Shown here: piece after piece, positions 6,145 to 60,307 of the stretch
Layout of the letters: every line of letters starts with the position of its first letter
How positions within the stretch are numbered: the first letter of the stretch is position 1
Source of the DNA: a virus
Direction: 5' to 3' (one strand)
IMG/VR virus record: IMGVR_UViG_3300032265_003789
Span: 1-64,000 of that record
Length of the DNA stretch: 64,000 bases
Made by a program: the position numbers and the translations under genes
The notes under the pieces: generated by a model
What the model was told of the DNA's origin: nothing
The model's database searches: none
What the model saw: the letters and a program-made list of their open reading frames with translations, nothing else

Positions 6145-6600
6145 TACACTAAGTATATTTGCCTACAAAACAAGATATATGGAAACCTGATAAATCCGGC
6201 TGCTGGCGACAGAATATCTTATATATCCTATTTCAATACGATTACCGGTACGACACTCGATACGATTATCAATACAATATCCATATGAAAACCTGATGAA
6301 TCCGACTGCTATCGACAGAATATCTTATATATTCCCTTGTCGGTACGATTACCGGTACGATAACCCGTACAAATACTCGTACAGTATATATACAAATTCC
6401 TGATATTTTCCGGCAAAATCGACAGAATATCTTATATATTTCCCGGGTATCCGTACGTTTATCAATACGATTACCGACACATATAAGTAAAATCTCAAAA
6501 TATCTAGAAATATATAAGAAAGTTTATAGAAAAATACCCAAAATTAGGTATAAATACCTATTGATCTTCTAGGAAATATATCCGATAATATATATATTAG
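6145..6600 (+). repeat. Module R1: tandem ~106-bp units plus promoter
   Basis: AT-rich non-coding region with three related units of about 106 bp. Each contains GACAGAATATCTTATATAT (6208, 6314, 6421), preceded by a CCTGAT...CCGRC block and followed by palindromic TACCGGTA / CGTAC-rich sequence. The module ends in a strong promoter (6546-6589). Almost the same ~470-bp sequence lies inverted at 51860-52330 (R3), and a shorter relative lies at 18160-18531 (R2). The tandem units are upstream of the promoter, so they are probably protein-binding (activator, iteron or centromere-like) rather than transcribed. Confidence 0.85.
6546..6589 (+). promoter_or_regulatory. Promoter with AGGTATaaATACCT operator (R1)
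   Basis: Perfect inverted repeat AGGTAT-AA-ATACCT at 6546-6559, directly followed by -35 TTGATC (6561-6566), 17 bp, and -10 GATAAT (6584-6589). A strong ribosome site GATAAGGAGG follows before the ATG at 6622. The palindrome next to the -35 looks like an operator for a phage regulator. Confidence 0.75.
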
Positions 6601-33235: not shown

Positions 33236-36033
33236 TCCCAGTTGTTACTTCTTTGGTAGGTAATTTAATAGCTAATTTACTAACTCCAATTCAAAATAAA
33301 AACAAGCTCGACCCATTGGCTTTGAGGGCTACCGCTGAATATGGGGCGCCAATTTCCCAAGCATATGGACACGTCCGAATTGACGGACTTTCTATGTTTT
33401 GGGGGCAAAATTTAATCCAAACAATAAATGGCGGTGGCAAGGGCTTTGGCGCTAGGACAAGGGATTACAAATACTATATGACCTGCGCTTATATGATCGG
33501 TGGAGAAATTAGCGATCTCAGGTGCGTTTGGTGTAATGGCGTACAAATCTACAGCAAAGAGACTGTTCAGAAAAAATCAGCTAATTTTGTCCGACATAGT
33601 GAGGTTTTTCTAGGGACTCTAAATCAGCCCATTTCCTCTGTAATTTCCTCTGTTGAGGGTAACGCGATCCCAGCTTTTAGAGGTAGATCCTACATTACTT
33701 TTAACCGTTATCCGCTTTCGGATTTTAATGGTTCTGGCTTTCCCAAGGTGGATGTACTTGTCTACGGCAAGGGAGGAGTCAATCCCACAATTAGGTCAAT
33801 AATCCAAGATATCTTTACTAGTGCGGGATTTGATACAAACAAGCTAGATTTATCAGATGTGCCAGCGGGTCAGCAGATTGAGGGATTGCTTTTTCAGCGC
33901 ACAGGCGAAACCTACGCTGATTATTTAAACGAGATTTGTAGATTATTTTTCTTGACTCACAGGGAGGAAAATGGCGTTTTAAAACTGCTCCAGAAAAACA
34001 GACCATCTGTATCGCTCAACCTAGCTTTAAATAATCTGGGCGCTCGCAATACCCCCGGCAAATCTCCAGACCTGTTCCAAGAGAAAATTCAACACAAGCG
34101 CGAGATGCCCTCCGAGGTGCAAATCAGCTTTAGAAACCTTGGGGATAACTATAGCCAGTGGGTTGTCACAGCAAGCGATCCTCTGGCTAAATCTAAAAAT
34201 CCACTCTCGATACAGACTAGGGCTTGGGCAAATCCCACCTTTATGGAGGGACTGGCAAATCGGATTATTGGCGAGGTAGCCTCACAGCGCAATACTTTTA
34301 GCGGGATAAGCCTGCTGCCCTGCTGGTATACCAAATTGCATTTAGGCGATGTCATCGAGCTCAACATAGGGCAAAGATCAGTGCAATTACAGCTTACTAA
34401 AAAGCTACTGAGCGCTGATTATCTTTGCCAGATTGAAGGCAATCAATATCTAAGTCCTATTGAGTGTGTTACTAAAAAAATCCATGTGTGGATCGCGGTT
34501 AGAAATATTAGTTGGATTTTTGCACAATCGGGATCAAATGGCGTGGCGTTTCCTCCAGGCGGTTTGGTTTTTTACACGCGAACAGTTGAGCCATTTGTGG
34601 GGTATGTTGATAATTTGCGAATAATTAATCAAGCAGTTCAACGAGGCGACGGGGTTGCTCGTCTTGTAATTGCTCCCGGTGGGGTTGGGTTTTCAGAAAA
34701 TCCGTTGGCTTTCCCTGGAGTACCAGATATACCAGAATTTCAAAATTCTGGCCCTGTGCCTATATATGGTCTTGACGGGTTTATAGGCGATCCCACAATC
34801 TATATTGATTATCCAGATGCTGCGATGCCAACTTCTTTAGGCGGTAGCTGGGGCTACAGTTCTCCAGCTTTTGATTGGGATCGTGGGGTGATTGTTGCCA
34901 CATCACAAATAAGCGATACCGTTGCATCGGGAAGTAATGCTTCTGACACAACGGTTTATGATTTCGGAAACGACAATAACTTTTACGCCATCTCACAAGT
35001 CGTTTCCAACTACACTCCCCAAGTTGCCAAGCCATATTCTAGAGTCAGCTCTTACACTGAGGGCATTTTGCATGTATTGGATATCCCTGTATTGAAAAAT
35101 TCAGATAATCCTCTAGGGATATATTTTGCGGTTGAGAGCGTTTCCAATTTCTCCACAGGCACAGTATTTGTCTCTACCGACAATGGGCTAACCTTCAATG
35201 GTTCAAGCACGGTCAAGGGCGCAAGCGCAGTCGGTATAGTCTACAGCTCCCCAATGCAAGCTGGCCCCACTGGAATAATTGACACTAATACAAAAATTGA
35301 TATTTACGCTCAAAATTCTATATTTGAATCAGTCACAGATGCTGCGTTTCTAGCAGGGGAAAATTTAATTTTAATTGGGCAAGAGATTATAGCCTTTAGA
35401 GATGTGCTGGTTAAACCAAATAATGTTTATCAAATCTCCCATTTAATCAGAGGGGCAAAAGGCACAGAAAGATTAACAGGAACTCACGTTTCAGGAGAGA
35501 GCGCCATACTTTTAAATAACGTTACGCAATTGGCAACCAAACAGGGAGATATTGGTAAAAACGTAGAGTTTAAAATTGTGCCTTATGACCAGACTGAACC
35601 AGATATTACAGATATTGTGACAGTCAACTACAAGGCTCAATCTGCCACGCCATACAACGTTACAGGCGTCAAGCAATCCCTAGCAGACAATGGCGATGTG
35701 AGTCTGTCTTGGTATAGGAGAACATATCAAAATGGAGAGCTATTGGATTATGTTGATATTGGGTTTGCTTCTGGGGAAATCAATACTTTCAAGATTGAAA
35801 TTTGGCAAGCTTTTAACAATAATCCAGTTTTAGTTAACACTCATTTTGCCAGTGGCAGTATTTTTTTATACACACAAGATCTGCAAAATATTGACGATAA
35901 TCTGGCTAATAATCTCTATGGTGGCAATGGCGGTAGTAAGTGGTTTAGGATATCGCAGCAAAGCTCAATAGTAGGCTACGGCCCATATACGCAAGTGCCA
36001 ATTATGAATATTTATTCAGGAACAATTTACTAA
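33217..36033 (+). CDS. Tail tip host-specificity protein (megatron-like)
   Basis: 938 aa. N-terminal part starts with a short hydrophobic region (IVIPVVTSLVGNLIANLL). Then GAPISQAYGHVRIDGLSMFWGQNL, YMTCAYMIGGEISDLRCVWCNGVQIY, a TIM/baseplate-like middle, and FESVTDAAFLAGENLILIGQEIIAFRDVL ... HLIRGAKGTERLTGTH. The last two are conserved in gpJ/GTA gp15-type central fibres. Forms the tail tip with the DUF2460/2163 and NlpC proteins just upstream. Confidence 0.8.
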   Translation: MSTAIVIPVVTSLVGNLIANLLTPIQNKNKLDPLALRATAEYGAPISQAYGHVRIDGLSMFWGQNLIQTINGGGKGFGARTRDYKYYMTCAYMIGGEISDLRCVWCNGVQIYSKETVQKKSANFVRHSEVFLGTLNQPISSVISSVEGNAIPAFRGRSYITFNRYPLSDFNGSGFPKVDVLVYGKGGVNPTIRSIIQDIFTSAGFDTNKLDLSDVPAGQQIEGLLFQRTGETYADYLNEICRLFFLTHREENGVLKLLQKNRPSVSLNLALNNLGARNTPGKSPDLFQEKIQHKREMPSEVQISFRNLGDNYSQWVVTASDPLAKSKNPLSIQTRAWANPTFMEGLANRIIGEVASQRNTFSGISLLPCWYTKLHLGDVIELNIGQRSVQLQLTKKLLSADYLCQIEGNQYLSPIECVTKKIHVWIAVRNISWIFAQSGSNGVAFPPGGLVFYTRTVEPFVGYVDNLRIINQAVQRGDGVARLVIAPGGVGFSENPLAFPGVPDIPEFQNSGPVPIYGLDGFIGDPTIYIDYPDAAMPTSLGGSWGYSSPAFDWDRGVIVATSQISDTVASGSNASDTTVYDFGNDNNFYAISQVVSNYTPQVAKPYSRVSSYTEGILHVLDIPVLKNSDNPLGIYFAVESVSNFSTGTVFVSTDNGLTFNGSSTVKGASAVGIVYSSPMQAGPTGIIDTNTKIDIYAQNSIFESVTDAAFLAGENLILIGQEIIAFRDVLVKPNNVYQISHLIRGAKGTERLTGTHVSGESAILLNNVTQLATKQGDIGKNVEFKIVPYDQTEPDITDIVTVNYKAQSATPYNVTGVKQSLADNGDVSLSWYRRTYQNGELLDYVDIGFASGEINTFKIEIWQAFNNNPVLVNTHFASGSIFLYTQDLQNIDDNLANNLYGGNGGSKWFRISQQSSIVGYGPYTQVPIMNIYSGTIY

Positions 36034-36356
36034 TGCCCAGCTCCCACTTAGAGGATTATTTTGAGCGCAGTTGGCAAGAGCTCTATCCAGAGATTGCCCT
36101 AGAGCGCGAGGTCAAGTCAATCCCCGGCAGAAGATTTAGACTTGATTTTGCCCACACCGCATCCAAAGTAGGGATAGAGATTGAAGGGCAAATCTGGCAC
36201 AAATCGAGGCACACTAGCGGCTCTGGCTTGCTCAAATCCTACGAGAAACACAACCTCAATTTAGTTCACGGCTGGAGAGTTTTTCAATTGGCAGAGGATA
36301 TGATCTGCCCAGATTGGCTCAATTTGATTGCTGATACAATTAAAGGCGCAGATTGA
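36033..36356 (+). CDS. Small Vsr/DUF559-like endonuclease
   Basis: 107 aa, start codon overlapping the stop of the tail tip gene (TAATG). RRFRLDFAHTASKVGIEIEGQIWHKSRHTSG resembles the D-x-n-ExE core of Vsr/DUF559 PD-(D/E)XK nucleases. It is followed by LKSYEKHNLNLVHGWRVFQL, typical of the family's end. Could nick or cut DNA during recombination or against competitors; role unknown. Confidence 0.7.
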   Translation: MPSSHLEDYFERSWQELYPEIALEREVKSIPGRRFRLDFAHTASKVGIEIEGQIWHKSRHTSGSGLLKSYEKHNLNLVHGWRVFQLAEDMICPDWLNLIADTIKGAD

Positions 36357-36422
36357 AACCCTTACCTAGTAATGCTTACAAATTTAGTTCCCGAAAAAGA
36401 TAAACAATCCAATTCTGTGCTA
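36356..36422 (+). repeat. 67-bp direct repeat, left copy
   Basis: Matches 36659-36725 (offset 303 bp) with a few mismatches. Both copies encode an ATG and MLTNLVxExxKQSxSVL. Confidence 0.85.
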
Positions 36423-36551
36423 AGCCATTATCAATCAGATTTAGCAAAGGCTCTGGTTGAATTGCGACAAAAAGCAATCAAGCAAGATCTGCAGCTGTGG
36501 ACAATTGAGCAGATTAACCAAGAGCTGAGCTTACGCCGTGGCACAAAATAA
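36372..36551 (+). CDS. 59-aa protein sharing the first 17 residues of the cas6-like gene
   Basis: MLTNLVPEKDKQSNSVL then an unrelated helical part (SHYQSDLAKALVELRQKAIK ... SLRRGTK). The shared beginning comes from the 67-bp duplication, so this may be a fusion of a copied start to another small gene. Overlaps 36538-36672. Confidence 0.5.
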   Translation: MLTNLVPEKDKQSNSVLSHYQSDLAKALVELRQKAIKQDLQLWTIEQINQELSLRRGTK

Positions 36552-36672
36552 GCAAAAAATACTGCTTAAAAACAAAGCAGGCGAGTTAATCGAAATCGAC
36601 ATCCAACTGGCTAAATTGGCAATGGCTCAAGCCCTAAAAACACTGAACGAATCAACCAAAACCCTTGCCTAG
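36538..36672 (+). CDS. Small helical protein (44 aa)
   Basis: GTG start at 36538, overlapping the end of the preceding gene. Reads VAQNKQKILLKNKAGELIEI...LNESTKTLA. Stop is 2 bp before the cas6-like ATG. Unknown. Confidence 0.45.
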   Translation: MAQNKQKILLKNKAGELIEIDIQLAKLAMAQALKTLNESTKTLA

Positions 36673-36725
36673 TAATGCTTACAAATTTAGTTACCGAAAG
36701 AAATAAACAATCCGATTCTGTGCTA
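36659..36725 (+). repeat. 67-bp direct repeat, right copy
   Basis: Overlaps the start of the cas6-like gene; see 36356-36422. Confidence 0.85.
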
Positions 36726-37373
36726 GAGCAATTTCTAGAATTAGAATTTAAAGTATCAGGCTCATCCTTGCCAGCAGACAACGGATTTTCTCTATATAGT
36801 GCAATCAAGGCAATTGCTGGCGATTTACCAGAGGATATGCTGCTTTGCTCAATTCCCGGCAAATCAGATCCTCCGGGACTAATTAAGATTAACGATGGCT
36901 CAAGGCTCAGGCTAAGGGCTAAAGGGAGCGACACTGCCTATTACCAACAGGCTTTAGCAGGTAAAATTCTAAATATCAGAAATCACCAAATCAAATTAAT
37001 TAATATCAGCTTGAAGGAGATAGAGCCAAAAAGCAAGTTGCAAGCTCGAATTGTGACTTTTAAATTGCTAGGGATCTGGGACTACGGCAATCCTCCGGTT
37101 GATAGATTTTGGCACATCTGCAATAAGGCGCTAGCGACAATTGGCGTTACCGCAAGATTGGATTTTACTAGGGTTAGTTCGCTCAAGATTCACGATAGGT
37201 CCGTCTTGGAATTTGGCGTGATTGCCTCTCGATTATCCGAGCAAGACTCAATAACCTTGCAGCAAAAGGGTTTAGGGGGAAGAAAACACTTTGGATCGGG
37301 ATGGTTTTTTAAATTTTCTCAAATTAGGTATAAATACCTATTGACCCCCAACGAAAAATCGCATAAGCTATAG
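36675..37373 (+). CDS. cas6: Cas6-like RNA endonuclease family protein
   Basis: 232 aa, close in pattern to the Cas6/Cmx6 (I-MYXAN type) family. FKVSGSSLPADNGFSLYSAIKAI lies near residues 25-47 (family form 'LPxDHGyxLYsAl'), then CSIPGK and RLRLRAKGSDTAYYQQALAGKILNIRNHQIKL. After those come ARIVTFKL, EFGVIASRLSEQDSITLQQKGLGGRKHFGSGWF with the glycine-rich loop. Cas6 cuts CRISPR repeats to make crRNA. The His expected after Asp35 is Asn36 here, so cleavage may be lost. It lies just upstream of the csf genes. Its last ~18 residues are encoded by the next gene's operator and promoter. Confidence 0.75.
   Translation: MLTNLVTERNKQSDSVLEQFLELEFKVSGSSLPADNGFSLYSAIKAIAGDLPEDMLLCSIPGKSDPPGLIKINDGSRLRLRAKGSDTAYYQQALAGKILNIRNHQIKLINISLKEIEPKSKLQARIVTFKLLGIWDYGNPPVDRFWHICNKALATIGVTARLDFTRVSSLKIHDRSVLEFGVIASRLSEQDSITLQQKGLGGRKHFGSGWFFKFSQIRYKYLLTPNEKSHKL
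37326..37369 (+). promoter_or_regulatory. Operator and promoter inside the cas6-like 3' end
   Basis: AGGTATaaATACCT (37326-37339), -35 TTGACC (37341-37346), 17 bp, -10 TAAGCT (37364-37369). The shared AGAAAGTTAAGAAATTAATC leader follows and AGGAGATACAAA precedes the ATG at 37408. Confidence 0.75.
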
Positions 37374-37407
37374 AAAGTTAAGAAATTAATCAATTAGGAG
37401 ATACAAA

Positions 37408-37815
37408 ATGACACTTGCTACTACTTGCCTCAACGATCCCATCGAGACCAAATCTTTTGAAGGAGTTCAATTGAGAGGATCCTCTCAATTGCATCGCTTA
37501 GCCCAAGAAATTTGCAGCTTGTTTCAAGAAGAGGAAATGCAGGAAGAAGGATTAGATCCTTCGCACAAATCTCTGTACTATATCAAATCCGTTCCTCATG
37601 GAGAATCAACTACAATCATGTTTTGCGACGTTCGCACGAAAGCTGGTGTCACAGTGCGGTTAAAGGATCTGGCTACAGAAACAATACAGCACTTTGCATT
37701 TAGCGGAGGCAAAATATGCCTAGAAGTTGACACATTGCAAGCTCATGGTTTTGGAATTGTTGAAGCTAGTCTTGTCGGTCGGGAAAAAATGTCGCTTGCT
37801 GCTCTGACTTGCTAA
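37408..37815 (+). CDS. Hypothetical protein between cas6-like and csf1
   Basis: 135 aa, MTLATTCLNDPIETKSFEG...; mixed alpha/beta, with LHRLAQEICSLFQEEEMQEEGLD and TTIMFCDVRTKAGVTVRLKDLATE. Own early-type promoter, single gene, followed by a hairpin. No family recognised. It may be a phage accessory gene placed here by chance, or a partner of the CRISPR-like locus. Confidence 0.6.
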   Translation: MTLATTCLNDPIETKSFEGVQLRGSSQLHRLAQEICSLFQEEEMQEEGLDPSHKSLYYIKSVPHGESTTIMFCDVRTKAGVTVRLKDLATETIQHFAFSGGKICLEVDTLQAHGFGIVEASLVGREKMSLAALTC

Positions 37816-37822
37816 AAATATT

Positions 37823-37853
37823 AGGGGCTTGCAATAGCCCCAACAAAAAAAAG
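37823..37853. terminator. Hairpin between the convergent 37408 gene and csf1
   Basis: GGGGCT-tgcaat-AGCCCC stem, followed on the plus strand by an A-rich run that is a T tract for minus-strand transcripts a little before the stem. Weak or bidirectional terminator. Confidence 0.45.
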
Positions 37854-38504
37854 TTAGTCCATCTCTGCTTGCTTATTACAAGCGACGTGTGAAATCAATT
37901 CAAAAACTCTAGTCCCTCTAATTGGTGCTAGGACTTGTTCTGCTTTCCAGAATTCAGGATTGCTGTGAAGCTTGAGCAGATTTTGTGATTTGTAGTTTCC
38001 GCTGAGTATTTCTGTCTTCGTAAGCTCCAAGCCCATTAATAATTCAAATTGCTCTAGATTTTCTGTAAATTTAGCTCGATCAATTTCCAGTAAATCCAAT
38101 TCGAAAAGCACAGGGAATCTATCTTTTTCTTGAGCTTCTTGAGCTAGAAATAGGATATGCTTTTGCCCACTTTCAGCTATAGCAATTGTAAAAGGTGGCT
38201 CAGGTGGATTTATAAGCCACTGCCTGATTAGCGATCTATTGGGCAAAGTATGCACGCGATCACCTTCAAAAATTGGATAGGATTGCTGGTTGGAAAGCAG
38301 CCAGCTAAATGTGCGAGAAAATAAAAGCCCTTCCTTTTTTGTATTGGGATTGTAATACTTGACGCGCATGGGAATCACCCAAGCGCACCTATCGCACCAA
38401 AGCTTAGATTCTGGTACTTTGGCTCTAGAGTGAGCTGTAAAGGTATCTTTTAAACTTAGTGATTTAGTGGCTCCTTGAGCTCCACACAAATAACAGAAAT
38501 TCAT
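37854..38504 (-). CDS. csf1: Csf1 (type IV CRISPR large-subunit-like, zinc-finger protein)
   Basis: 216 aa from ATG 38504. N-terminal C-x2-C (Cys4, Cys7 in MNFCYLCG) and second C-x2-C (Cys37, Cys40 in LWCDRC) form a zinc-finger pattern as in Csf1. It is followed by FSRTFSWLLSN and EGDRVHTLPNRSLIRQWLINPPEPPFTIAIAESGQKHILF, typical of the family. Csf1 is the Cas8-like small large-subunit of type IV complexes. It is encoded divergently from cas11-csf2-csf3, separated by 51 bp, an arrangement that could allow separate control. Confidence 0.8.
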   Translation of the reverse strand: MNFCYLCGAQGATKSLSLKDTFTAHSRAKVPESKLWCDRCAWVIPMRVKYYNPNTKKEGLLFSRTFSWLLSNQQSYPIFEGDRVHTLPNRSLIRQWLINPPEPPFTIAIAESGQKHILFLAQEAQEKDRFPVLFELDLLEIDRAKFTENLEQFELLMGLELTKTEILSGNYKSQNLLKLHSNPEFWKAEQVLAPIRGTRVFELISHVACNKQAEMD

Positions 38505-38523
38505 ATTTTTAGTAATTGGTATA

Positions 38524-38537
38524 TTGATATAAATCAA
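38524..38537 (+). promoter_or_regulatory. Inverted repeat between csf1 and cas11
   Basis: TTGAT-ATAA-ATCAA in the 51-bp divergent region. A plus-strand promoter could be TTGATA (38524), 16 bp, TACTAG. Weak evidence. Confidence 0.35.
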
Positions 38538-38555
38538 TCAAACCATACTAGTAAT

Positions 38556-39071
38556 ATGCTTGGATTTGCTACAGACGATAGGATTACTTCACTAGCTGCT
38601 GCTTTAAGCTATTGGGTTTTTAGGTGCCGAGATACCAGTTCAGCAGCAAACGGGCTAAAAACCTGGGAGTACATGCAGTCTTCTATACAAAACGCTGCCA
38701 CACCTTCAAGAAGCCTTAGTGACTATTTAGTGAATCTTTCGCTCAAGCTTTCAGTCCCTACGCTCAAGCCCAATATCTGGCGCCAGATAGTTCAACCTAA
38801 TCAGGTTGTCCTAAGAGCTGCTATTTCAGAAGATGGCAGCTTGGGTGATTTGCAACAATTCAACAAAGATCAAGCTTTAGCCTATCAAGATTGGGAGCAA
38901 TTGATTCACCAATGGCGCATTGAGTACGGAATTACTGAAAGGCACGTTCTGAGGGTTTGCTTAAATAGACCTCAACTAGTAACTCTATACGTGAGGCTCA
39001 AGCACGAAGAAGAAAAGCTTAATTGGCAAAACAATACACAAGAAAATAAAGGAGACACTATCGATGTTTAG
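38556..39071 (+). CDS. Cas11-like small subunit of the type IV complex
   Basis: 171 aa from ATG 38556; all-helical (LAAALSYWVFRCRDTSSAANGLKTWEYMQSSIQNA ... LIHQWRIEYGITERHVLRVCLNRPQLVTLYVRLKHEEEKLNW). Size, helical nature and position directly before csf2 fit the small subunit of type IV-B loci. Sequence alone would not identify it. Overlaps csf2 by 8 bp; AAAGGAGACAC lies before the csf2 start. Confidence 0.65.
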   Translation: MLGFATDDRITSLAAALSYWVFRCRDTSSAANGLKTWEYMQSSIQNAATPSRSLSDYLVNLSLKLSVPTLKPNIWRQIVQPNQVVLRAAISEDGSLGDLQQFNKDQALAYQDWEQLIHQWRIEYGITERHVLRVCLNRPQLVTLYVRLKHEEEKLNWQNNTQENKGDTIDV

Positions 39072-40221
39072 TACTTACAATCCAGACAAACGCCATCGCA
39101 TTACTTTTCACCTTGTATTAGAAACTCTAGCTCCTTTGAGCCATATTGGGGAGACCGTGGGCAATCAAGCCAATTTGCGGACAGTAACCCTGACTGATAT
39201 TGAAGGTGAACCTACTCCTATATTCTGCCTATCCGGGAATTCATTGAGAAATAGAATATTGCGCAGAGTAGGGATTGACGATATGCTCTCTCGCCTAAAA
39301 ATCACAGTAAATCCACTTTTGCATCATGCACTTTTTTGTGGGGGCGCTCTTGATGGAGGCACTTCTAATAATCTTGAATTAGATAAAAAAATTAGGCAAT
39401 TCTTACCACCAATTTCTTTATTGGGCACAGCTAAACCTAAAGGGGTTTTTGGTGCTACTGATGCCCAAATGATTGGCGGTAGGCTCAATGTGGGTGATGC
39501 CGCGCTGGTCTGCTACGAAAGCGCATTAGCAATTTTTAATACTTTTAAGCCGGCTTTACCAGTTGAAGTAATTGAAGCTTTAACTCAAATTGAAAACGCC
39601 AAAAGGACTTTAGAAGCAGAACGAGTGCAGGCTTTTTTATCTGGCAAAGAATCTACTAATACAGGTTTAGATTACAAGGAAACCTTGAAGTATTGGCTGC
39701 CTTTTTTAGAGCAAAAGCTCAGACCCTACCCACACTGGCTTACCTATATACAAAAAACCAGACGCGATTCTCACCATGATCCCAATTTGGTAAAGCACCT
39801 TTTACCAGCAGCCGGCAAAGTTCAACAAACGCTTTTTGATTCTGGAGAAACTAAAAAGGAAAAACCCAAGAGTAATCAGATGATCATGGGTTCATGGTTA
39901 ATACAACAAGGCGCAACCTTGTATTCTCGGTGGGACGGATATATCACAGATGTCGAGGAAGGTTTTATTGCTCGGGCTATATTGGCTTGGGCAGATTCTC
40001 CTTACGTCGGTGGGCAAGCTAATACAGGCTGTGGTAAGGTTGCAGCTAAAATCTATTATTCCAGTGAGGGGGAAATAGGGGACTGGATGCTGGTACAAGA
40101 AGGCAAACATACCTTGACTGAGCGCTCAGCCAAACAACAGGCAAGATACGATCAATACCTTCACGAATACGAACAATATTTAGAACAAAATTCAAACGAA
40201 ATTGCAGGTATACTAGGATGA
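39064..40221 (+). CDS. csf2: Csf2 (Cas7-type backbone of type IV CRISPR complex)
   Basis: 385 aa with strong family features: RITFHLVLETLAPLSHIGE, FCLSGNSLRNRILRRVGI, VNPLLHHALFCGGALDGGTSNNLELDKKIR, FLPPISLLGTAKPKGVFGATDAQMIGGRLNVGDAALVCYE, and a late PYVGGQANTGCGKV glycine-rich loop. Csf2 polymerises along the guide RNA to form the backbone of the complex. Length is normal for the family, slightly extended at the C-terminus by charged helix (RYDQYLHEYEQYLEQN). Shares ATGA with csf3. Confidence 0.9.
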   Translation: MFSTYNPDKRHRITFHLVLETLAPLSHIGETVGNQANLRTVTLTDIEGEPTPIFCLSGNSLRNRILRRVGIDDMLSRLKITVNPLLHHALFCGGALDGGTSNNLELDKKIRQFLPPISLLGTAKPKGVFGATDAQMIGGRLNVGDAALVCYESALAIFNTFKPALPVEVIEALTQIENAKRTLEAERVQAFLSGKESTNTGLDYKETLKYWLPFLEQKLRPYPHWLTYIQKTRRDSHHDPNLVKHLLPAAGKVQQTLFDSGETKKEKPKSNQMIMGSWLIQQGATLYSRWDGYITDVEEGFIARAILAWADSPYVGGQANTGCGKVAAKIYYSSEGEIGDWMLVQEGKHTLTERSAKQQARYDQYLHEYEQYLEQNSNEIAGILG

Positions 40222-40898
40222 CTCCTTTACAAATTACAGCGCACCTTTCACGACCTTTAGCCACTACTGATAGCCTTTCTCCAGCGATTGAAGGATTGAT
40301 TGAATATAAGCTCAGAGAAGAACTAGGGCTACTAGATCCCAATCCACAAAAGCTTGAAGAAATAACACAGATAGATTTACCCCTACTAAAAAACAAATTG
40401 GGATTTTATCACTGTAGCTCTCCACACTATCTTTACAGCAAAGAAGAGCAAGTCAATTTTCGTAAGCGCTGGGATTATCAGGATAGGCACTTAGACTGGG
40501 GCAAAAAGAAAGCCAAGGTTGATACAAGTCAAGGGCAGTTCAAGTCTTACGATATGCCACTTTTTTTGCGTACGATTAGTAGAATTGACTGGTTCGTGGT
40601 AGGAGAGCAAGAGACAATTTTAAGATTACTCAAAAACGTAACTCACCTAGGCAAAAAACGCAGTCAAGGATATGGGTTGGTTACTAGCTGGACTGCTCAA
40701 GAAATTCCAGGGGATTGGTCAATAATTGGCCCAGACAACAGGCTTAGACGACCGGTTCCAGTAGAGCTATTTACTCCTAAGTTGCCTGAGCACAAACAAC
40801 TAGCAGCCTGGAAATTACCAAGCTGGCACCACGAATCTACTAGCCTTTGCTGGGTACCAAGCGTGAATATTAAGCAGGAGAATTGTCTTGCCTCTTAG
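40218..40898 (+). CDS. csf3: Csf3 (Cas5-type subunit of type IV CRISPR complex)
   Basis: 226 aa; LQITAHLSRPLATTDSLSPAIEGLIEYKL, YSKEEQVNFRKRWDYQDRHLDW, GQFKSYDMPLFLRTISRIDWFVVGE, LLKNVTHLGKKRSQGYGLVTSW (RAMP glycine-rich loop GKKRSQGYG). This is the Csf3/Cas5 pattern, the subunit that caps the 5' end of the guide RNA. Overlaps csf2 by 4 bp and the cysH-like gene by 11 bp. Confidence 0.85.
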   Translation: MTPLQITAHLSRPLATTDSLSPAIEGLIEYKLREELGLLDPNPQKLEEITQIDLPLLKNKLGFYHCSSPHYLYSKEEQVNFRKRWDYQDRHLDWGKKKAKVDTSQGQFKSYDMPLFLRTISRIDWFVVGEQETILRLLKNVTHLGKKRSQGYGLVTSWTAQEIPGDWSIIGPDNRLRRPVPVELFTPKLPEHKQLAAWKLPSWHHESTSLCWVPSVNIKQENCLAS

Positions 40899-41625
40899 CA
40901 AAGGCTCTGGCTTACAAATTCCTTGGCTCAAGCCCAAAATCAACAAGGCTCTAGATTTAATTAAGCAGTGGCTAGAGCTTTGTGATCATCAGGTTTATTG
41001 CGCGGTTTCGGGCGGTAAGGACAGCTTGGTTTTAAGCCATTTAGTGCAACAAGTATATCCAGATTGCCCAAACCTTTGGATTAATCAAGGCCCTTTGGCT
41101 GAATGGGATGATTGTATTGAATTGTTGTCAACTTTCAATAATTTGATTGAATTGTGTCCGAGAAGGTCTTTATTAAAGTTGTATTGTGATTACGGGCTTA
41201 ATTTTGATGGCACAATGCACACAAAATTAGACAAAATCATAAATCAAATTTTAATTTATGATCCACTTGATGAGTACATTGAGCAACATCAAATAAAAGG
41301 TTCTGCCGTAGGGATTAGATCTCAAGAATCAAAAGCAAGACTTTTAAATCTTGCCAGAAGAGGACTATTGTATCAAATGAAAGACAAATCTTGGAAGTGC
41401 TGCGCAATCGGAAAATGGACAACTCAAGATATTTGGAACTATATTGATCACCATAAATTGATCTATCCTGCAATTTATGATTTAGACAGGTATACAGTTA
41501 GAAACGGGCCGCCTAACGGAACTACCGGCGCCAATAGGGGGCGAATAACTTTTCTTAAACGACACTACCCTGAGCTCTATCATCAATTTATTCAAGCTTT
41601 TCCCGAAGTAAAAGACCACTGCTAA
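40888..41625 (+). CDS. cysH: CysH-like PP-loop ATPase of the type IV-B locus
   Basis: 245 aa from TTG 40888 (AGGAG 8 bp upstream). PP-loop AVSGGKDSLVLSH at residues 39-51, then GSAVGIRSQESKARLLNLARRGLLY and KWTTQDIWNYIDHHKLIYPAIYDL, as in PAPS reductase/CysH proteins. It lacks the C-terminal ECGLH-type cysteine of true reductases, so assimilatory sulfate reduction is unlikely. CysH-like genes are a known companion of type IV-B csf loci, where their job is unknown. ATP-PP-loop chemistry on nucleotide or RNA is possible (inference). Confidence 0.85.
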   Translation: MPLSKGSGLQIPWLKPKINKALDLIKQWLELCDHQVYCAVSGGKDSLVLSHLVQQVYPDCPNLWINQGPLAEWDDCIELLSTFNNLIELCPRRSLLKLYCDYGLNFDGTMHTKLDKIINQILIYDPLDEYIEQHQIKGSAVGIRSQESKARLLNLARRGLLYQMKDKSWKCCAIGKWTTQDIWNYIDHHKLIYPAIYDLDRYTVRNGPPNGTTGANRGRITFLKRHYPELYHQFIQAFPEVKDHC

Positions 41626-41641
41626 AATATTTTCCCAAATT

Positions 41642-41685
41642 AAGTATAAATACTTATTGACCCCTAATAGGAAATGGATTAAGCT
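41642..41685 (+). promoter_or_regulatory. Operator and promoter for the 41719-42450 pair
   Basis: AAGTATaaATACTT (41642-41655; both arms changed so the palindrome is kept), -35 TTGACC (41657-41662), 17 bp, -10 TAAGCT (41680-41685), then AAAAGTTAAGAAATTAATTA and GGAGATACGAG before the ATG. Confidence 0.75.
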
Positions 41686-41718
41686 ATAAAAGTTAAGAAA
41701 TTAATTAGGAGATACGAG

Positions 41719-41946
41719 ATGTCAATGGAATTATTTTTACGTGACGGCAAGTTGTATTACAGAACCGCTAAAGGGGACGTATTTGTCCTCAACGGACTAC
41801 GTAGCGAGATCATCAGAAACCCTTTCAATTATTTGGTTCACAGCGCAGTCTGTGACGCCACGGATACTTTCAACCTTATTGCCTCAAAAGAGGTAATCGC
41901 TGATCTAGTAGAATCTCTAGAAGCAGCCAGTGAAGTCGGATTTTAG
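41719..41946 (+). CDS. Small hypothetical early protein
   Basis: 75 aa, MSMELFLRDGKLYYRTAKGD...; strand-rich start, helical acidic end (ASKEVIADLVESLEAASEVGF). Expressed from the operator-bearing promoter just upstream, with 41965 as second gene. Confidence 0.6.
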   Translation: MSMELFLRDGKLYYRTAKGDVFVLNGLRSEIIRNPFNYLVHSAVCDATDTFNLIASKEVIADLVESLEAASEVGF

Positions 41947-42552: not shown

Positions 42553-43329
42553 ATGGCTTTACGAGTTACCTTGAGCGAATCAGGTGATTATGCTCTCACA
42601 ATAGATGCTGCTGATTTGGAGCAAATAACATCTCAGGTCACTGGGATTTTTGATTTAAAATCTTTAAATGTTCCAGCCGCTAATCTAGCGGGAGATGCTC
42701 TCCCTCAATCGATTAATCAGCCTCTTAATGATTTTCAATATCGCTATACTCTTACGGTAGATACTTCAAATTTGCAGCAAATCCCACCTCAAGTTACTGC
42801 AATTCTAAATTTACAATCAAATAGTTCAACAGCTCCAGTTTTGCCAAAGCCAGTTCCTCTAGTTCTGCCTCGACTGCCTAGTCAGGCTCAAATCGATGCG
42901 CGTTTCAAGTACCTCAACAATACAATCAAACAACTTTTAAAATCCGAGTTAGGGCAGTACGAATTAGTCAAAGCAAGCAAGGTGATCAAGACATTGCCAG
43001 CGGTTTGGACTGAGCCACCTGTATTGCCAACAGAATACAGGATGAAAGAAAAATCTGGTATCGAGGTGATAATCTCCAGAGAAAGCGATCTTTCACAGCA
43101 ATCAGCCTTCAACAACGTATTGGAGCTCTACGAAAAATACACGCTGACACTGAGGCAATATGACACAGCAAAAACAACTCAACTTGCAGTGACTAAATTG
43201 CTCAACTCCAATCTTTTTGTGATTATTGATCAACCTAGGACTGTACCCTATACCCAGCTCAGCAGCGGTCTAGTCTACGAAACCACAACCGTCAAGATCA
43301 CCTCAGCTAGTTGGTATTTAAGGAGTTAA
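42553..43329 (+). CDS. Tail fibre/adaptor with duplicated N-terminal domain
   Basis: 258 aa from ATG 42553. Residues 1-40 (MALRVTLSESGDYALTIDAADLEQITSQVTGIFDL) and about 60-100 (FQYRYTLTVDTSNLQQIPPQVTAILNL) are two copies of one domain. The same domain starts the large fibre at 27145-29853, pointing to a shared virion anchor. The C-terminal half is helical, then a strand-rich end. Sits before the tail tube gene. Confidence 0.65.
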   Translation: MALRVTLSESGDYALTIDAADLEQITSQVTGIFDLKSLNVPAANLAGDALPQSINQPLNDFQYRYTLTVDTSNLQQIPPQVTAILNLQSNSSTAPVLPKPVPLVLPRLPSQAQIDARFKYLNNTIKQLLKSELGQYELVKASKVIKTLPAVWTEPPVLPTEYRMKEKSGIEVIISRESDLSQQSAFNNVLELYEKYTLTLRQYDTAKTTQLAVTKLLNSNLFVIIDQPRTVPYTQLSSGLVYETTTVKITSASWYLRS

Positions 43330-51859: not shown

Positions 51860-52330
51860 GAACCTCCTTATCGGGCTAATATATATATTATCGGATATAT
51901 CCCTTAAGAGATCAATAGGTATTTATACCTAATTTTGGGTATTTTTTTATAAACTTTCTTATATATTTCTAGATATTTTGAGATTTTACTTATATGTGTC
52001 GGTAATCGTATTGATAAACGTACGGATACCCGAAAAATATATAAGATATTTTGTTGATTTTGCCAGAAATTATCAGGAATTTGTATATATACTGTACGGG
52101 TATTTGTACGGGTTATCGTACCGGTAATCGTACCGACAAGGGAATATATAAGATATTCTGTCGATAGCAGCCGGATTTATCAGGTTTCCGTATGGATATT
52201 GTATTGATAATCGTATCGAGTGTCGTACCGGGTATCGTATTGAAATAGGATATATAAGATATTCTGTCGCCAGCAGCCGAATTCATCAGGTTTTTGTATA
52301 TTTCGCTTTATAGGCAAATATACTTAGTGT
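51860..52330 (-). repeat. Module R3: inverted near-copy of R1
   Basis: About 470 bp that, read on the minus strand, follows R1 closely from AATACACTAAGTATATTTGC through three GACAGAATATCTTATATAT-type units (the one nearest the promoter reads AACAAAATATCTTATATAT) to the promoter. It forms a long inverted repeat pair with R1, about 45 kb apart. Confidence 0.85.
51887..51930 (-). promoter_or_regulatory. R3 promoter with operator
   Basis: On the minus strand: AGGTATaaATACCT (51917-51930), TTGATC (51910-51915), 17 bp, GATAAT (51887-51892). Confidence 0.75.
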
Positions 52331-58389: not shown

Positions 58390-58887
58390 ATGGCACTTTC
58401 AATAGATTATTTGCGCTTGCCGCATTGCCCAGAAAATCAACTAATCAAGCACAATCCTACTGATGTCGGTTTTGATATTTACCTAACTCATGACACTTGG
58501 GTCTATCCATACAGCCAAATACCCTACGACAATGAGCGGGACGAGTATCGCGTATCATTGCAGCCTACTGGAGTGATATTAGCACCTTTAACTACTGATT
58601 ACTGGTTTGGGCTTTACCCTAGGAGCTCCACAATAAAAAAGGGAGTTGCGCTAGCTAATACAATAGGCATTATTGATCCCACTTATACTGGAGAGTTACT
58701 GCTGGCTTTATATAGTTTGCACAAGCCAATTCTGCTCAAAGCTGAAAAAGCTATAGCTCAACTAGTAATACATCACAACATCACTACAGAATTTAACCTA
58801 ATTGAAAATGACCCCAGATTTAACAAACGTGGCGGATTTGGATCAACAGATAGTAAATCAAACTTACCGACCGCTATACCAGGCTAA
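58390..58887 (+). CDS. dut: dUTPase (dUTP diphosphatase)
   Basis: 165 aa from ATG 58390. All five trimeric dUTPase motifs are visible: TDVGFDIYL (motif 1), YPRSSTIKKGV (motif 2), NTIGIIDPTYTGELLLAL (motif 3), EKAIAQLVI (motif 4), KRGGFGSTD (motif 5). Turns dUTP into dUMP and PPi, keeping U out of DNA and feeding the thymidylate-synthase-like enzyme whose gene overlaps by 80 bp. An extra loop of about 20 residues lies between motifs 1 and 2. Confidence 0.92.
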   Translation: MALSIDYLRLPHCPENQLIKHNPTDVGFDIYLTHDTWVYPYSQIPYDNERDEYRVSLQPTGVILAPLTTDYWFGLYPRSSTIKKGVALANTIGIIDPTYTGELLLALYSLHKPILLKAEKAIAQLVIHHNITTEFNLIENDPRFNKRGGFGSTDSKSNLPTAIPG

Positions 58888-60307
58888 TCAGGTAATTTGC
58901 GGACATGGCTCTATTGTGATAGTAACTGGATGGACGCCAGCGGCAATAATAGCCAAGCAACTTGACCCGGACTATTACGCTGCTATTGGTAATTTGTATA
59001 GCCCTACTCGCGGTCTATCTCCACTATTGCGCAATATCTTAGCCAATCCGTATATCAACTGCATCACAGGCTTGAAATGCACCAAAGAAGACGATAATGC
59101 TGGCGGTGTTCAAGCTTTGAATGATTTTTTTGTTAAGGGTTTTGAGGAAGGATTTAGCGATCTTGGCAAGCCAGTATGGGTAGTAAATTCACAAATTCGG
59201 GCTTATATTGATATTGAAATCCCCGGAGAAGCTTTAGAAGATATCAGGCGAAATGTCCGTTGGGTACTTAATTACACTGTGGCAGATTGTGTTAGATTTG
59301 TATTTCTTAAAATATTTCAGGCTAAATCTCACTGGGCTTATCCTAGAGCGTATCCCGAGCCTGAGTTTGTTCCTAGTAAAGCTTTGCCAGCTTCTCCCTT
59401 TGCTCACAGGGTTGAGGCAAAAACCATAGCCAAAGCTTGGGTGAAAATTCTACACAGAATAACAACCTCTGGCATAATCAGGCAGAGTAGTTATGGGCTC
59501 TGGCAAGAGCTAATAGATTTGGTTGTAGTGATTACAGATGAGCCAGATGTTTTGGAGTTTACTAATTACTTGCCAATCACTCGAATGTTTTTCAAAAACT
59601 ACTTAGCTGAATTTTCAGACCCTGCCAATCTTGGGGATGTTAGCTATACCTACGGGCAAAGGATCCGCTCACATTTTGGCGTGGATCAGGTTGAGCAGGT
59701 GATTGAAAAATTAAACGCTGACGCCAAAAGTGGAGGAGATTTCAATTGCTCTAATGCTGTGATTTCCCTGTGGGATCCAAGCGTAGATGGCAAGCAAACC
59801 AAGAATACGCCTTGCTTAAATCACCTTTGGTTTAGAGTTGTCCAAGGCAGGTTAACTCTTATTGCCACATTTAGGAGCAATGATATGTACAGCGCTTGGG
59901 TAGCCAATACAATGGCGCTTAGATGCCTTCAGATTGAGGTAGCTAAAAGGCTTGATATATTGGCAGGTGAGCTAATCACAATTAGCCAGAGCGCACATAT
60001 TTATCAAGATGATTGGCACGATGCCCAAGCGATTGTAAAGCGGCAATACAGGAAATTATGCAAACCCAATTTTGCAGATCCCGTAGGCAGTTTTATTATT
60101 GAGCCTAATGTGCGGGAAATTGTTGTCCATCAAACCACTGCCGGCAATGGCGAACTTGTCAATACCTACCGAGGTAAATCACCACTGACGCTTGTTCGGG
60201 AGATAGCAGCAGATAACCCCACAATTGCTCCAGAACACTTAGGGTATCTAGGCATCGAGCTAGAAAAAGCTTATAGATTAGGCTACAAGTACAAACAGGA
60301 TAAATAA
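58808..60307 (+). CDS. Thymidylate-synthase-like protein with N-terminal extra domain
   Basis: 499 aa from ATG 58808. C-terminal part about 240-470 carries ThyA features: NTPCLNHLWFRVVQGRLTLIATFRSNDMYSAW (catalytic Cys near 335 in a PC motif; R-S-N-D) and ELITISQSAHIYQDDW. N-terminal part about 30-190 has GHGSIVIVTGWTPAAIIAKQLDPDYYAAIGNLYSPTRG, a domain I recall from cyanobacterial and archaeal fusion proteins. Probably makes dTMP (or a 5-substituted dUMP) from dUMP and a folate cofactor; the exact product is not certain. Confidence 0.75.
   Translation: MTPDLTNVADLDQQIVNQTYRPLYQANQVICGHGSIVIVTGWTPAAIIAKQLDPDYYAAIGNLYSPTRGLSPLLRNILANPYINCITGLKCTKEDDNAGGVQALNDFFVKGFEEGFSDLGKPVWVVNSQIRAYIDIEIPGEALEDIRRNVRWVLNYTVADCVRFVFLKIFQAKSHWAYPRAYPEPEFVPSKALPASPFAHRVEAKTIAKAWVKILHRITTSGIIRQSSYGLWQELIDLVVVITDEPDVLEFTNYLPITRMFFKNYLAEFSDPANLGDVSYTYGQRIRSHFGVDQVEQVIEKLNADAKSGGDFNCSNAVISLWDPSVDGKQTKNTPCLNHLWFRVVQGRLTLIATFRSNDMYSAWVANTMALRCLQIEVAKRLDILAGELITISQSAHIYQDDWHDAQAIVKRQYRKLCKPNFADPVGSFIIEPNVREIVVHQTTAGNGELVNTYRGKSPLTLVREIAADNPTIAPEHLGYLGIELEKAYRLGYKYKQDK

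Follow-up and report, generated by a model that had tools for sequence, protein, structure and literature searches.

A type IV-B-like CRISPR effector module with an adjoining cas6 gene and an exchangeable cysH segment on tailed phages

Introduction

Type IV-B is a CRISPR (clustered regularly interspaced short palindromic repeats) subtype whose RNA and purpose are unexplained, and the complex that has been studied had no array, no Cas6 and random RNA. A 2021 review describes IV-B as lacking both an array and a processing enzyme for CRISPR RNAs (crRNAs) (PMC8175902), and in the 2025 classification most IV-B loci are without arrays (PMC12669027). Which RNA such a complex might carry where a cas6 gene lies beside it is the question raised by a locus on the IMG/VR virus record IMGVR_UViG_3300032265_003789, where csf1, cas11, csf2, csf3 and a cysH-like gene are found next to a Cas6-like gene. 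The window analyzed here comprises the first 64,000 nt of this record, and "the window's record" refers to the full entry of 79,733 bp, both ends of which are open. A preliminary description had read the locus as a phage-carried complex that may borrow guides from its host or be directed against the defences of the host or of rivals. Our comparative analysis confirmed the observation and partly supported the interpretation. It also revealed the strongest feature of the locus, which is invisible from the window alone, namely the exchange of the 3′ part of cysH together with an accessory gene behind a near-constant effector.

Results

The locus is a variant of type IV-B

The module occupies the following positions in the window:

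36675..37373, plus strand: cas6 (Cmx6 type), 232 aa; Pfam Cas6 1e-39, NCBIfam TIGR02807 (cas6_cmx6) 106 bits, over cut-off
37408..37815, plus strand: 135-aa gene between cas6 and csf1 without a family match of note, preceded by a repeated phage promoter
37854..38504, minus strand: csf1 (Cas8-like large subunit with zinc finger, two CxxC pairs); PADLOC Csf1_0_IV 1.6e-28
38556..39071, plus strand: cas11 (small subunit); PADLOC Cas11_2_IV 1.5e-13
39064..40221, plus strand: csf2 (Cas7-like backbone); PADLOC Csf2_0_IV 2.3e-38
40218..40898, plus strand: csf3 (Cas5-like); PADLOC Csf3_0_IV 2.8e-45
40888..41625, plus strand: cysH-like PP-loop gene (SGGKDS); Pfam PAPS_reduct 3.4e-14

These matches, which lie well above chance level, bear out the gene identities given in the preliminary description, including the upstream Cas6/Cmx6-like gene, and place the products starting at 39064 and 40218 in Csf2 and Csf3, respectively. 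The Csf2 profile reaches the solved structures of IV-B Csf2 (7jhy) and IV-A Csf2 (8rc2), and the cysteines C4, C7, C37 and C40 of Csf1 are invariant across five relatives. Matches to the NCBIfam models of csf1, csf2 and csf3 stay below the respective cut-offs, which marks the locus as a divergent member. Neither dinG (IV-A) nor a cas10-like or HD subunit (IV-C) was found among eight neighbouring proteins, the scan with those profiles covering these eight and not the rest of the record. Because the cas6_cmx6 match exceeds its cut-off and the gene is kept in relatives, the locus is classified as a variant of type IV-B.

The likelier start codons (ATG at 38504 for csf1 and at 38556 for cas11) leave a gap of 51 bp between these two divergent genes. 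The splitting off of csf1 on the minus strand had been regarded as unusual; it is not peculiar to the window but common in the lineage, and in G016 and G018 csf1 lies 52–54 kb away. The 135-aa gene is replaced by other genes in G005 (different open reading frames (ORFs) at the same spot in L003).

As the window is a metagenome contig, an assembly artefact that joins unrelated genes has to be considered, an objection which the preliminary description had itself raised. However, two independent metagenome assemblies (G005 and G009) repeat the arrangement with 91–96% DNA identity, which excludes an assembly join, and the gene set recurs in many records and in one finished plasmid. The probability of such an artefact is therefore negligible, and we conclude that the locus is a type IV-B-like effector module on a tailed phage, with a genuine Cas6 adjoining.

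Relatives of the module and Csf2 phylogeny

Searches with Csf2, Csf3 and the 3′ part of CysH recovered the module from 36 further IMG/VR records and from the Gloeobacter plasmid pGMOR1. This count leaves out one more viral contig, L014, which is more distantly related (Csf2 28%). In the Csf2 tree, 16 rows of this set, the window among them, make up a single clade with a support of 100/100 beside other IV-B sequences, while a pair of IV-A sequences is set apart from all others (99/97), so that the window falls on the IV-B side of IV-A. The tree leaves out a third group (G028–G043, 16 records), whose gene order is mostly cas11-csf2-csf3-cysH-csf1. The window's own group consists of seven records (the window, G005–G008, G009 and pGMOR1), and a second phage lineage is referred to below as lineage 2. 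One phage contig (L140) carries two tandem IV-B-like csf3-cysH-csf1 sets.

The 3′ part of cysH is exchanged together with a partner gene

Within lineage 2, the identities amount to 95–100% for Csf2, 93–99% for Cas6 and 52–100% for CysH. The records G013 and G016 share Cas11 (100%), Csf2 (100%) and Csf3 (98%), but their CysH proteins are 54% identical and are accompanied by a coq4 and a cupin partner gene, respectively. At the DNA level, the match among lineage-2 records ends sharply at nt 192–212 of cysH and resumes at the first codons of cas6. Between the window and G005, the break lies at nt ~203 of cysH and the match resumes at the repeated promoter; the window gene is common to its siblings up to ~41090 and its remainder is exchanged. 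The switch at codon ~65–68, directly after the PP-loop, is found in two phage lineages, and the shared part contains the PP-loop. In lineage 2, the exchanged segment comprises the 3′ part of cysH with a cupin gene (G012, G014, G016 and G023), with one of two versions of coq4 (G013 and G026; G018 and G020) or without a partner (G017). Pfam identified cupin and Coq4 in two records each, and profiles derived from these served to identify them in the remaining records.

The AlphaFold model of CysH (predicted local distance difference test, pLDDT, 76) has CysH 6vpu as its best PDB match in Foldseek (E 5.7e-9) and also matches FAD synthase and TtuA. CysH is accordingly modelled as a PP-loop enzyme of the PAPS reductase fold. 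No catalytic C-terminal cysteine motif stands out in the CysH alignments examined, none of which was a test against PAPS reductases.

The swaps could also represent ordinary homologous recombination between shared flanks without functional meaning, with cysH being an auxiliary metabolic gene. Such an origin would fit the mosaic nature of the window phage, the repeated promoter cassettes around the module and the scores of CysH against PAPS reductase families. However, the intragenic breakpoint is the same in two phage lineages and cupin or coq4 is exchanged along with it. Moreover, strict conservation of cysH in IV-B has been published, and its product reportedly lacks the catalytic cysteine (PMC8175902). 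We consider this explanation very improbable.

A second gene of the PAPS reductase family is often located near IV-B modules (L014, L018, L052, L055, L056, L008 and L006 6119–7306); in L052 and L055 it adjoins a ParB-N gene.

cas6 is a conserved component of the module

The presence of a cas6 gene had been pointed out as unusual for IV-B. This holds with regard to IV-B outside the clade, since cas6 is absent from five whole IV-B plasmids and four genomes, but the gene is not the oddity of a single phage. A cas6 of the Cmx6 type is kept in all seven records of the window's group, with matches over the cut-off in the window, G005–G008, pGMOR1 and G009. It is likewise present in each of the nine lineage-2 records that extend past cysH, eight of which exceed the Cmx6 cut-off while one is truncated at the contig end. 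In G021 and G022, a 37-residue remnant of cas6 lies between cysH and csf1.

The position of cas6 varies: it is found between csf2 and csf3 in pGMOR1 and G006, after cysH in G007 and G008, and after cysH or the partner gene in lineage 2. Although gene order is reshuffled among the records, cas6 nonetheless stays inside the module. Cas6 identity correlates with Csf2 identity (r 0.97 over 14 rows; 0.70 over six distinct lineages), and the corresponding value for CysH over six distinct lineages is 0.06. The nearest solved relative of the Cas6 family alignment is the type I-B Cas6 8fcj (E 7.5e-42). We conclude that cas6 is a conserved component of this lineage's module rather than a chance neighbour.

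Several relatives carry CRISPR arrays

The preliminary description had listed the lack of an array among the known traits of IV-B. This applies to the window's record, whereas arrays or mini-arrays are present in seven relatives (G006, G008, G016, pGMOR1, G029, G033 and G034). G006 carries two arrays with eight and about eight repeats of 36 nt. G008, a probably complete record with a terminal repeat of 123 bp, contains a five-repeat array and, where csf1 has its 5′ end, a mini-array of two repeats. Arrays of five and eight repeats are present in G016 and pGMOR1, respectively. Of the third group, G029 carries an array of 15 repeats, G033 carries two with 28 and 10, and G034 has two repeats located 6 bp from csf1. 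From this recurrence and from the contact with csf1 in G008 and G034, we infer that the arrays belong to the module's system. A search for cas1 in ten array-bearing and related records found none, with a control positive in nine genomes.

No array was detected in G005, G009 and G018, in the parts of G028 and G035 that were covered, or in four IV-B plasmids outside the clade. Neither in the window stretch nor in the array of G029 did Rfam report a CRISPR repeat above threshold, and the folds of the repeats were not usefully better than those of shuffled sequences. A seeming repeat in G018 lies within sequence that looks coding and was disregarded, and two contigs that have 18 nt in common with the G006 repeat were dismissed as chance matches.

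Between the two arrays of G006 lies a HEARO RNA (RF02033, 118 bits; G006 42757–42919, corresponding to L031 2757–2919, minus strand), with a second partial copy at L031 4934–5000. HEARO RNAs are the guide RNAs of IscB-type nucleases.

A proposed RNA-guided mechanism and its alternatives

We propose that the module is a phage-borne IV-B variant which is RNA-guided, obtains its guides from phage or host arrays and uses part of CysH as an exchangeable payload; the chances for and against this reading seem to us evenly balanced. What follows on the processing and loading of guides, on targeting and recruitment and on the chemistry is our inference. Csf2, Cas11, Csf3 and Csf1 would assemble into an RNA-binding filament; the Csf filament of the published structure binds RNA and presents it for pairing (PMC7937560). 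Cas6 would cut repeat-containing transcripts into guides, the source being the phage array where present and otherwise arrays in trans, from the host or a co-infecting element. Given that both Cas6 and arrays are available, the loading of guides is the most straightforward assumption. The loaded complex would then locate matching nucleic acid and recruit the CysH-like PP-loop enzyme. Our guess is that CysH may activate its substrate by adenylylation, because the PAPS reductase fold, FAD synthase and TtuA families activate substrates with ATP, and this is in line with a published review (PMC8175902). The portion of CysH after the PP-loop, together with the optional cupin or Coq4-like partner, would be a swappable payload that sets the action at the target.

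More tentatively, these modules may represent a phage-specific IV-B branch in which a near-constant RNA-guided complex is combined with interchangeable payloads (CysH after the PP-loop; cupin, Coq4-like or none), so that the chemistry performed at guide-selected nucleic acids would differ from phage to phage, with guides from phage arrays being cut by a dedicated or host Cas6.

Several points weigh against RNA guidance. The 79.7-kb record of the window, whose ends are open, contains no CRISPR array according to exact and degenerate repeat scans; these gave only 106-nt-spaced repeats and 22-nt iterons and no solitary CRISPR repeat, and the repeats of the other systems are absent from the record, differing by at least 13 mismatches in 36. 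In the third group, 15 of the 16 records are without cas6, which is thus not required everywhere. The array of pGMOR1 may serve another system, as this plasmid also bears a I-D cas3, and the same is conceivable for the arrays of G029 and G033, which adjoin a transposase gene. Some spacers are very short (12–14 nt). Moreover, no spacer of the relatives matched any of the collected records or a phage collection, and a search of IMG/VR with 18 spacers as 24-nt patterns gave no confirmed protospacer; mismatched targets would escape these searches, and some pattern hits are unconfirmed. A plasmid search with the array regions of G006, G029 and G033 and an IMG/VR search with back-translated spacer peptides returned only the arrays themselves. 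Finally, the only IV-B complex studied bound RNA without a preference for crRNA (PMC7937560).

The heterogeneous RNA in that solved complex (PMC7937560) would also suit a filament that is no CRISPR effector but coats RNA regardless of sequence, the arrays being decaying, unrelated passengers. The irregular spacers (12–27 nt), the degenerate repeats and the members in which no array was detected point in the same direction. This leaves unexplained, however, why a conserved cas6 tracks Csf2 and why mini-arrays abut csf1, and none of the four non-clade IV-B plasmids had an array; we therefore regard such a filament as improbable.

A further possibility is a guide scavenger or sponge: host pre-crRNA or crRNA would be taken up and cut by the phage Cas6, blocking the host CRISPR system, and CysH would modify or lock the captured RNA. 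This would agree with the array-less record of the window and with a phage Cas6 that is closest, among solved structures, to type I-B Cas6. In addition, the arrays of the cas6-less G029 end in AGGGATTGAAAC, an ending which we take to resemble that of cyanobacterial chromosomal repeats. Sponge models have been proposed for IV-B (PMC8175902). Against this, seven members possess arrays or mini-arrays, which a sponge would not require and two of which touch csf1, and co-expression of a IV-B complex gave no enrichment of crRNA (PMC7937560). Scavenging is thus rather unlikely in our view. With regard to the preliminary description, the arrays of the seven relatives make own or host-made guides at least as likely as scavenging. 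Its other suggestion, an action against host or rival defence, would be a possible role for which the spacer searches yielded no protospacer.

Phage context, host and local sequence features

The module is bordered after cas6 and after cysH by promoter-like cassettes, with further copies elsewhere in the record:

37313..37413, plus strand: promoter-like cassette with palindrome GGTATAAATACC, TTGACC/TAAGCTAT-like boxes and a ribosome-binding site; 81% identical to 41629–41724
41629..41724, plus strand: second copy of this cassette, right border of the module

The palindrome GGTATAAATACC occurs five times in the record with one mismatch allowed, compared to no occurrence of a reversed-pattern control. 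Over its first ~20 codons, cas6 repeats the beginning of the small phage ORF that precedes it (36356–36429 versus 36659–36733, 90.7%), which suggests that the gene has acquired its translation start from the phage.

The locus had been placed amid virion genes of a likely temperate cyanophage. Its left flank indeed consists of tail genes (PHROG 4271 tail protein, 2e-81), while to the right, where terminase, beta clamp and a weak integrase match are found, the virion assignments are weak. Terminase and portal are encoded among the large ORFs of G018 and G029, which identifies these as tailed phages. A temperate lifestyle is suggested by the weak integrase match, and the phage is probably a cyanophage: the relative on the Gloeobacter plasmid and the gene content point to a cyanobacterial host. 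DUF5895 and DUF4346, both present in the window, are presumably found mainly in cyanobacteria.

A small phage gene at 36033–36356, by eye a possible Vsr-like endonuclease without a family match, lies beside the module in the window, G005, G006 and G009. Three copies of a ~50-nt sequence, 106–107 nt apart, are located at 6177–6439, and an inverted set is found 46 kb away at 52037–52299, beside GGTATAAATACC cassettes. Four 22-nt iteron-like repeats GGCAAATGTTCGGAGCTAATTG lie at the record end (G000 79370–79454; L002 19370–19454), and G009 contains more copies with a 331-bp duplication nearby. At 58802–60307, the window encodes a thymidylate synthase fused with a pterin-binding DUF4346 domain.

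Discussion

The module shares csf1, cas11, csf2, csf3 and cysH with the plasmid-borne IV-B systems of Mycobacterium JS623 and Rhodococcus, and the ten records searched are without cas1. It differs from them in having cas6, arrays in relatives, a csf1 that is often located elsewhere or divergently, and an exchangeable 3′ part of cysH with its accessory gene. Csf2 is also longer (~385–405 aa versus 300 in 7jhy). With type IV-A it has in common the combination of Cas6, array and Csf effector; however, its Csf2 lies on the other side of the tree, and Cas11 and cysH take the place of the DinG helicase. Its Cas6 is a clear homologue of type I-B Cas6 (8fcj) and Cmx6, but is paired here with a IV-B effector that lacks both cas3 and adaptation genes.

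Another IV-B system carried by a virus, that of Fuxivirus among the viruses of Bathyarchaeia, also includes cysH and a mini-array of two repeats (PMC10848311). Fuxivirus is an archaeal virus, and the text consulted mentions no cas6, whereas the window family comprises tailed phages with probable cyanobacterial hosts and arrays of up to 28 repeats. In the literature consulted, we found no report of IV-B with Cas6, with long arrays or with cysH exchange; priority is uncertain, as Pinilla-Redondo 2020 and Moya-Beltran 2021 were outside this comparison.

Overall, a natural family that pairs IV-B with Cas6, and in relatives with arrays, allows the question of the carried RNA to be asked with cognate parts. 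The exchange within cysH marks the variable half of the enzyme and thereby offers an approach to CysH, which is strictly linked yet lacks an explanation. If the proposed reading is true, a sizeable clade of phages would carry its own nuclease-free CRISPR device.

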